From Alphaproteobacteria bacterium (lineage in GTDB: Bacteria; Pseudomonadota; Alphaproteobacteria; JAPYRI01), in contig JAPYRI010000009.1 in the NCBI GenBank assembly GCA_029941135.1, positions 1-53,947 on the forward strand: 53,947 bases of DNA, written 5' to 3'. This document shows positions 34,921 to 36,455 of the stretch, in pieces. A program made the position numbers and the translations under genes. Positions within the stretch are counted from its first letter, which is position 1, and every line of letters starts with the position of its first letter. Under the pieces are notes generated by a model. That model ran no database searches. It was not told where the DNA came from and saw only the letters and a list, made by a program, of their open reading frames with translations.

Positions 34921-34964
34921 AAATTATTTATTCGCATGTGTTTCGGATGCAGCGCATCCGCACT

Positions 34965-36455
34965 ATGATACGGCAACCGTTGGGGGAGTGTATATTTTTG
35001 TTGATACGATTGGTTGTGTTAACGGTCGCCTTGTGGCTGGCTGCTTTGTCAGATCATGCGCGCGCGCAGACGTCCGAGTTCCCCCTGCCGGGCGAACTGA
35101 CAGGCGCCGTTTATCTGGCGAGCGATTACGTGTTTCGCGGGATTAGCTTCACCGATGAAGAGCCGACCATCCAAGCCAATGTTTTTTACACCCACCCCAG
35201 CGGATTTTACGTCGGGCTGTGGGGCACCAACACGGATTTCGGCCCGGCCAGTACGGCGGGCGAACATTTGGAGTTTGACCCAACCGGCGGATATGCTGGC
35301 GAAGGCCCGTTCGGCATCCACTACGATTTCAACTACTTTTATTTTCACTATCCAGGGGTCGACTCCTCCTACAATTACGACATGCACGAGTTCGGCCTGT
35401 TTCTGAGCCGCGATTTCGGCTTTTTAAATGTCGCCACGCAAACCATCTACAGCCCGGAATACGCGGGCGACCGGGGGCCGTCTGAATACTACGCGCTCGA
35501 TATCGGGGTGCCGGTGCCTTACCCCTTTGCCCATCGATTGCCGCTGTCGCTTAAATTTCATATTGGCACTCAACAGTTAGACGACGACGATCCGTTGGCG
35601 TTTGACGACTACGCGGATTGGAGTGTCGGCGCGACCATCCCCTTGAAAGCTTTCGACTTAACCGTCACTTACACGGATTCAGATCTGGATAATGTCGATG
35701 CGGCGGGCGAGCAGATTATCTTCATACTCTCGCGTGTATTCGGCGCCGGCAAAAAGGCCGGCCTGCACACAGAGGAGAGCGAGTCATCCCTCGATTTCCC
35801 CGGCGAAATCACTGGGGAACTGGGCTTTACCACCGACCACGTATTCCGGGGGTTGAGCCTGTCGGACGAAGAAGGCGCGGTTATTGGCAGCCTTAAGTAC
35901 ACTCATCCGAACGGCTTTTACGCCGGCTTGTGGATGTCCGATATTCACTTAAGCGGCGCAAGCACCGCGGACGAGCATGTCAAAATGCGGTTTTGGTCGG
36001 GCTTCACCGGCAAGACCGATTTTGGCCTCATGTGGAACGCCGACTATTACTTCGTACAGTTTCCCGGGGTCGCGACCGAATTTGAGTTCGACTTTCACGA
36101 GTTCGGCGGGGGGCTCGCCTACGACTTCAGGCACTTTGTGCTCTGGGGCGGGGCTTATTATTCGCCGGATTATTTCCTCGGCAGTGGCGATGCCACGTGG
36201 ATTGGACTGGAAGCCGGTCGGGCCGTGCCGCATCCGTTCTCAGAGATTGTGCCGGCCTATTTCAGCGCCCACTGGGGCAATCAGTTTGTCGACCAGGATC
36301 AGCCCACAGCTTTCCAGGATTATCAGCATTGGGGTGCTGCGTTCACCCTGGATGCGGTCGGCTTTAAGTGGCGGTTTGAAGCCACGGACACCAACGTGAA
36401 GCACTTGGACGGCGCCGACGAACGTCTTTTCCTAACCGTCACAAAATCGTTCTAG
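34965..36455 (+). CDS. TorF-family putative porin, tandem duplicate
   Basis: An outer-membrane-type protein built of two homologous units of about 220 residues each. Unit 1 (from about 35091) has GELTGAVYLASDYVFRGISF, THPSGFYVGLW and HEFGLFLSRDFGF. Unit 2 (from about 35802) has GEITGELGFTTDHVFRGLSL, THPNGFYAGLW and HEFGGGLAYDF. Each matches the single-unit TorF/TIGR02001 pattern. The product ends in Phe (TVTKSF), as beta-barrel proteins do. A signal peptide (LIRLVVLTVALWLAALSDHA) is present. Start codon is uncertain: ATG 34965 has no ribosome binding site, while TTG 34998 has GGGGGAG 9 bases upstream and would begin right at the signal peptide. Confidence 0.85.
   Translation: MIRQPLGECIFLLIRLVVLTVALWLAALSDHARAQTSEFPLPGELTGAVYLASDYVFRGISFTDEEPTIQANVFYTHPSGFYVGLWGTNTDFGPASTAGEHLEFDPTGGYAGEGPFGIHYDFNYFYFHYPGVDSSYNYDMHEFGLFLSRDFGFLNVATQTIYSPEYAGDRGPSEYYALDIGVPVPYPFAHRLPLSLKFHIGTQQLDDDDPLAFDDYADWSVGATIPLKAFDLTVTYTDSDLDNVDAAGEQIIFILSRVFGAGKKAGLHTEESESSLDFPGEITGELGFTTDHVFRGLSLSDEEGAVIGSLKYTHPNGFYAGLWMSDIHLSGASTADEHVKMRFWSGFTGKTDFGLMWNADYYFVQFPGVATEFEFDFHEFGGGLAYDFRHFVLWGGAYYSPDYFLGSGDATWIGLEAGRAVPHPFSEIVPAYFSAHWGNQFVDQDQPTAFQDYQHWGAAFTLDAVGFKWRFEATDTNVKHLDGADERLFLTVTKSF

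Follow-up and report, generated by a model that had tools for sequence, protein, structure and literature searches.

Outer-membrane proteins with more than one barrel on a single chain form a class described by Solan et al. (2021), as cited in the accessible portions of PMC11494523 and PMC8592465; the same portions present GfcD as a two-barrel protein, and its barrels are unlike, having 12 and 13 strands, and are accompanied by a periplasmic middle domain (PMC11494523, in the part available). Among engineered proteins, OmpX constructs with duplicated strands fold, and the source cited for them claims a functional pore in its title (Arnold et al. 2007, as referred to in the available part of PMC6340704). 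The TorF family has a sparse literature: in the accessible parts of two papers, the name torF is given to SO4694 of Shewanella oneidensis, a ‘TMAO reductase system outer membrane porin’ (PMC5955497), and the shell of gold nanoparticles includes a 36-kDa TorF family putative porin (PMC13303613). A limited search of the open-access literature found no published description of proteins with two TorF units, and no link in print between TorF and amtB.

The window, that is, the whole stretch of 53,947 nt that was analysed, contains a double TorF gene on the forward strand (34965..36455; 496 aa). An open reading frame check places it in one uninterrupted frame that runs from 34938 to the end of the stop codon at 36455, which agrees with the span and single frame given in a preliminary description of this DNA. 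The ATG at 34965, also the start in that description, is the likely one, with the GTG at 34938 as the alternative (505 aa); read by eye, a hydrophobic, signal-peptide-like stretch directly follows the ATG, and the putative signal peptide region (34965..35069), which ends in HARAQ, consists of this stretch and then ARA-Q. The first TorF unit (35070..35741, ending in ILSRVF), a hydrophilic linker (35742..35792) and the second unit (35793..36452, ending in VTKSF) make up the remainder; no second signal peptide was seen in the linker, again by eye. The neighbouring frames in the window were named by eye as GST, htpG, Bax-inhibitor-like and FtsX-like, and a promoter and terminator scan gave nothing useful. 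The host genome (3.02 Mb in 178 contigs) encodes one more TorF, a single, on a different contig (C31).

Scored whole, the protein presents two stretches to NCBIfam TIGR02001 (204.3 bits; cut-off 47.15) and two to Pfam PF09694 (Gcw_chp; 173.6 bits; cut-off 24), and, scored apart against TIGR02001, each unit exceeds the cut-off by itself (138.8 bits for unit 1 and 76.2 bits for unit 2). The earlier claim of two complete TorF units in one polypeptide is borne out by these matches, and every motif quoted as common to the two was found in both: GELTG/GEITG, VFRGIS/VFRGLS and THPSGFYVGLW/THPNGFYAGLW (unit 1/unit 2, respectively), together with HEFG in each. With two units, the frame departs from the one-unit architecture that is usual in the family, although not part of its definition. 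Compared with each other, the units score 157 bits (E 1e-52), far above chance, with 78 of 223 residues identical (35%) and no gaps. At the DNA level, the two halves are 48% identical and their longest exact common stretch is 12 nt, so an assembly duplicate looks unlikely. It had also been argued that the units have diverged and that the fusion is, therefore, not recent: the divergence is evident from the 35% identity, but the age of the fusion does not strictly follow, because divergence dates the duplication and not the fusion, and both units have, moreover, lost more of the conserved family positions than single TorFs have (see below).

Double TorFs are rare, albeit not unique: they occur in two lineages among the matches listed from about 1,450 genomes (1,568 genome searches in all, some genomes being searched more than once). 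Within the class of the window, 83 of 385 genomes have TorF matches, and in this complete list two units occur only in the window's frame; the window's order and family are represented in the searched set by this one genome. A phylum sample of 398 genomes held no other double among the matches listed, its two longest frames having one unit each, and a sample of 369 genomes from a different class gave two matches within the same frame in a single family, f329, likewise among the matches listed. These two samples, and that of the 196-genome order mentioned below, comprise best matches only, and weak doubles could be missed in them. We read f329 and its class as Gammaproteobacteria, because the f329 units group with Haliea and Sedimenticola singles in a quick tree. 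Of its 24 genomes, 16 encode a complete double (open frames of 466–500 aa), one a double cut by a contig end, one a single only and one a fragment, with five having no match; the complete doubles are at loci L135–L137, L144–L150, L152–L156 and L158, L151 being a repeat of L135. Two further TorF-rich orders (196 and 194 genomes) and an order of two genomes yielded no additional pair among the matches listed. The unusually long once-matched frames from the class, the phylum sample, the other class and the 196-genome order (L138–L142 and L187–L197) have one unit each, which holds for the 11 listed once-matched frames of more than 430 aa in that order, and at L198 (genome G153) there is no frame of at least 80 aa that matches the TorF profile. 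No double was present in the best 80 of 541 relatives from a genome-contig collection, no close relative was found on viral contigs (in a search sensitive to close relatives only), and none of the 12 matching plasmid records covers >45% of the query. The domain-architecture survey that had been suggested at the outset, thus, gives two lineages among the matches listed, the window's alphaproteobacterium and f329, and the statement that members of the family normally have a single unit applies in the genome samples (matches listed) with f329 as the one exception. The preliminary description had allowed that double-unit TorFs might turn out to be common and described already; a second lineage does exist, yet such proteins are rare and the literature search described above returned no account of them.

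The preliminary description had posed two tethered barrels against one larger barrel and had looked to structure prediction for an answer. AlphaFold2 was run on the mature protein with an alignment of 67 further rows, the protein's own two units among them; being built from single-unit proteins, this alignment skews the model in favour of single, closed barrels. The model has 24 strands, arranged as 12 (residues 9–225) and 12 (residues 246–460), with a disordered linker between them (residues 228–243, pLDDT <50). In the first half, pLDDT is at least 90 in 17 of the first 22 ten-residue blocks, and in the second half it is mostly 60–80; the pTM of the model is 0.53, and the mean pLDDT of the five models ranges from 78.8 down to 59.4. 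The lower confidence in the second half arises because the aligner placed all of the single homologues on the first half, leaving zero depth there: with the same relatives, unit 2 modelled alone has 12 strands, a mean pLDDT of 93.6 and a pTM of 0.86.

We propose that a TorF gene was duplicated and fused in frame within this lineage, independently of f329, to give an outer-membrane multi-barrel protein with two TorF-type channels, and put the probability of this proposal as a whole at roughly 0.8. Of its elements, the two units, their homology and sister relationship, the 12 predicted strands in each and the placement of each half on single barrels were computed directly. The chain would begin with one signal peptide, followed by two 12-stranded TorF channels joined through a short periplasmic linker. 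Since the linker is hydrophilic and no second signal peptide was seen, the BAM machinery would receive both barrels on a single exported chain and insert them, each closed, side by side, which would keep the two channels at a 1:1 ratio. One channel would be near the family type and the other electrostatically altered.

The altered character of the second channel is suggested by the residues predicted to line it. Strand faces were assigned from the alternation of hydrophobicity, a procedure that uses no coordinates, and this places positions 35, 39, 68, 70 and 107 (unit 1 numbering) on the inside. The signature Q-D-E-D-E at these positions, defined in this analysis and with no published definition, occurs in 87 of 96 single TorFs (the genome's own paralogue included); the other nine differ at one site each, and both glutamates are present in 96 of 96. 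It is found, too, in all 16 units of the f329 doubles examined (8 of 16). Unit 1 reads Q-F-E-D-E and keeps four of the five residues, whereas unit 2 reads I-K-K-R-E, a combination absent from all 96 singles compared, and keeps one: it lacks Q35, E68, D70 and the family's D39, with the aspartate, glutamate and aspartate replaced by lysine, lysine and arginine, respectively, and retains E107. The inward-facing residues sum to a net charge of −9 in unit 1 and −1 in unit 2, as against −12 to −3 for 65 in-set singles and −13 to −1 for 31 held-out singles (the tree singles absent from alignment A3); the value for unit 2 is extreme rather than unique, because one of the 31 held-out singles also has −1. 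Moreover, 31 columns are shared by 80% or more of the 65 singles, and of these, 20 are retained in unit 1 and 16 in unit 2, the corresponding numbers being at least 24 for the in-set singles, 24–31 for the held-out singles and 26–28 for the 16 f329 units (8 of 16 doubles); each of the 96 singles compared retains more of the conserved family positions than either unit does, unit 2 being the poorest.

These same figures invite the strongest of the alternatives, namely, that barrel 2 is a decaying copy without function, which persists only as a passenger or a membrane anchor: its retention is the lowest (16/31), and Q35, E68, D70 and D39 have all gone. However, the frame of unit 2 is intact, with no gaps relative to unit 1; unit 2 retains E107 as well as the R-G and W positions; the outward hydrophobicity is close to that of unit 1 (1.08 versus 1.21; mean of the singles, 1.55); a 12-stranded barrel is confidently predicted; and the exchange of the family's D, E and D for K, K and R resembles change more than decay. 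On this balance, we consider a degenerating copy unlikely. In the proposed protein with two channels, barrel 1 has kept most of the acidic inward site and would probably favour cations, or else the solute that is usual for TorF, whereas barrel 2, judging from its residues, may have another selectivity or a structural or regulatory role, because the acidic site is lost and the charge is reversed at three positions. It is possible, as a tentative extension of which we are ourselves doubtful, that the protein is an asymmetric double channel, in which an acidic, cation-type barrel 1 and a rebuilt, basic barrel 2 would have different, perhaps opposite, charge preferences at a fixed 1:1 ratio. If so, uptake of a cationic nitrogen source could be paired with that of an anion, an idea prompted by the frequent location of single TorFs next to glnK-amtB.

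Whether the two units form separate barrels was addressed through superposition of the models, from which barrel closure is deduced. With VIA-align, residues 248–461 of the double superpose on 168 of the 171 residues of KdgM, a 12-stranded barrel (Z 17.4, rmsd 2.4), residues 9–224 on 196 of the 278 residues of FapF (Z 15.9, rmsd 3.1), and the first half on 184 of the 240 residues of OMPLA (Z 14.1). Taking the best row per entry, KdgM, NanC and VhGalP fall on the second half, and the FapF and OMPLA entries on either half; for unit 2 alone, KdgM is again the top match (Z 17.4, rmsd 2.3). OmpG and FadL, which have strand numbers other than 12, also match, with Z values of 12–14, i.e. below that of KdgM. 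Foldseek on the whole double gave strand-order matches only (rmsd 14–21) and served solely for comparison with the translocation domain of FimD, a 24-stranded usher barrel, to which the fit is poor (TM only 0.38, rmsd 16.7). Two tethered barrels are much likelier than a single 24-stranded one, because unit 2 superposes on almost all of KdgM, and unit 1 on most of FapF or OMPLA. For the units instead to open and fuse into a single barrel of 24 strands, whose pore would be much wider, the topology would be permissive, as both unit ends are periplasmic and the linker could serve as a turn, and the folding of duplicated-strand OmpX constructs offers a precedent (PMC6340704, in the part available); against this, all 12 strands are kept in each half, each half superposes on single barrels, the hydrophilic linker is much longer than a barrel turn and the FimD match is poor, points that all depend on an alignment with a single-unit bias. 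We regard such a merged barrel as very improbable. Of the two options posed at the outset, that of two barrels is, thus, favoured by the 12 + 12 strands and by the VIA-align superpositions, and the one larger barrel disfavoured: two tethered 12-stranded barrels on one chain are, on the predicted models, the most likely arrangement by a good way, and, by prediction, the chain carries more than one complete barrel domain, as in the multi-barrel class.

The origin of the fusion was traced with trees whose rows were picked by hand. Three of 80 loci (L060, L068 and L077) had been excluded earlier for an unknown residue or a partial hit, and alignments A2–A4 contain 65 of the 77 full-length singles, 12 similar ones having been dropped by hand with no identity cut-off; the quick tree has 75 rows (57 singles and 8 of the 16 f329 doubles), and the careful tree has 38 rows and includes four f329 doubles. 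In the latter, units 1 and 2 are sisters (99/95) and the units of the four f329 doubles group in a separate clade (100/100); the quick tree, with eight f329 doubles, agrees. A joint clade of the window units and those of the four f329 doubles is rejected with a p-AU of 0.028; this value is not overwhelming, the test was run after the quick tree had been seen, and unit 2 sits on a long branch and is odd in composition. The grouping of unit 1 with the single TorF encoded elsewhere in the genome is likewise disfavoured (p-AU 0.046). By tree, the window double and the f329 doubles arose independently. The contrary possibility, one old double architecture inherited by both lineages, can point to the same unit order and a similar total length (466–500 aa in f329) but is highly unlikely, since the window units are sisters, the f329 units form their own clade, the joint clade has the p-AU given above, and homogenisation could mask common descent in f329 and not in the window's diverged pair.

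Such homogenisation is indicated within f329 itself. The halves of each protein are 68–89% identical (mean 82%), unlike the window halves with their 35%, and between genomes N halves average 72% identity to N halves, as do C halves to C halves. In 5 of the 16 proteins (L136, L137, L144, L147 and L156), the best match of each half is its own other half; in L150, the same is true of the C half alone, and the remaining ten best-match another genome. The pattern suggests that the two halves have been homogenised in some f329 members, with separate duplications as the alternative. Additionally, unit 1 of the window protein has a C-terminal phenylalanine (ILSRVF), as in single TorFs, and the first units of f329 end in SKSI, SKAI, SKAL or similar. 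Among the best 80 of 541 relatives, four loci (L065, L075, L108 and L116) have two TorF frames on the same strand within a few kb, and such adjacent pairs are plausible as a precursor state of fusion; L077 also has two adjacent TorF frames, and these look like one gene split between two frames.

The genomic context of the family offers a hint to its role. Of 80 TorF loci (L043–L122, the best 80 of 541 relatives), 33 have an Amt or P-II gene within the flanking sequence covered (up to 5 kb per side), with the nearest on the same strand in all 33 and within 500 nt in 31, using as queries four proteins, three of them confirmed by Pfam; the frequency describes these 80 loci, which are a non-random sample. 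The arrangement suggests TorF as an outer-membrane partner of ammonium uptake, and from this neighbourhood and the sparse TorF literature, our guess would be that the family serves in the uptake of small, probably cationic, nitrogen compounds. No Amt or P-II gene was found at the double itself (L002 and L003, about 3.7 kb each), within 11 kb around the single paralogue (L173), in five f329 loci (L135, L136 and L174–L176) or beside two plasmid TorFs; the Amt genes of the host genome are on another contig (C32). At four of these five f329 loci (L135 and L174–L176), the double is near frames that by eye resemble a Rep-type helicase and thioredoxin, and the neighbours of L136 differ.

With its own family (TIGR02001, PF09694), the window protein shares the cut-off passed by both units, the motifs and a predicted 12-stranded outer-membrane barrel; it differs in that nearly all members surveyed are single, whereas it has two units per chain, the second without the Q-D-E-D-E signature. 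The closest solved fold is predicted to be that of KdgM, of the KdgM/NanC oligosaccharide porins (Z 17.4 and rmsd 2.3–2.4 over 168 of 171 residues for the second unit), but the likeness does not extend to sequence: identity in the structural alignment is 6%, Pfam reports Gcw_chp and a sub-threshold Porin_4 only, with no similarity to the KdgM family, and a PDB sequence search up to E 1 has filamin as its sole match (E 0.18). The predicted model has the 12-stranded KdgM fold; a shared fold says nothing about function. The f329 doubles likewise have two TorF units in one frame, of 466–500 aa, but they are of independent origin, with halves that are 68–89% identical and the signature in both (8 of 16 examined), where unit 2 of the window protein has lost it. 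As far as the accessible portions of the sources describe it, GfcD/YjbH resembles the window protein in having more than one barrel domain per chain, GfcD including a 12-stranded one, but GfcD has unlike barrels and a periplasmic middle domain, whereas two homologous TorF barrels joined by a short linker only are predicted here. The engineered OmpX duplication, again as described in the available part of its source, is similar in that a small barrel gene was duplicated in frame; it is, however, an 8-stranded laboratory construct, and the window protein is natural, with units predicted to be separate.

Multi-barrel outer-membrane proteins, a small class, may thus gain two independent natural TorF fusions, of which one has similar halves and occurs in the majority of the genomes of its family, and the other has halves that have diverged strongly; together, they would provide a direct test of what is gained by tethering small barrels, and of whether duplicated barrels merge or stay apart. 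A possible role also emerges for the little-studied TorF family, as an acidic channel often encoded beside glnK-amtB. The multi-barrel class itself is known; the window protein stands out in having arisen independently and in the strong alteration of its second barrel.
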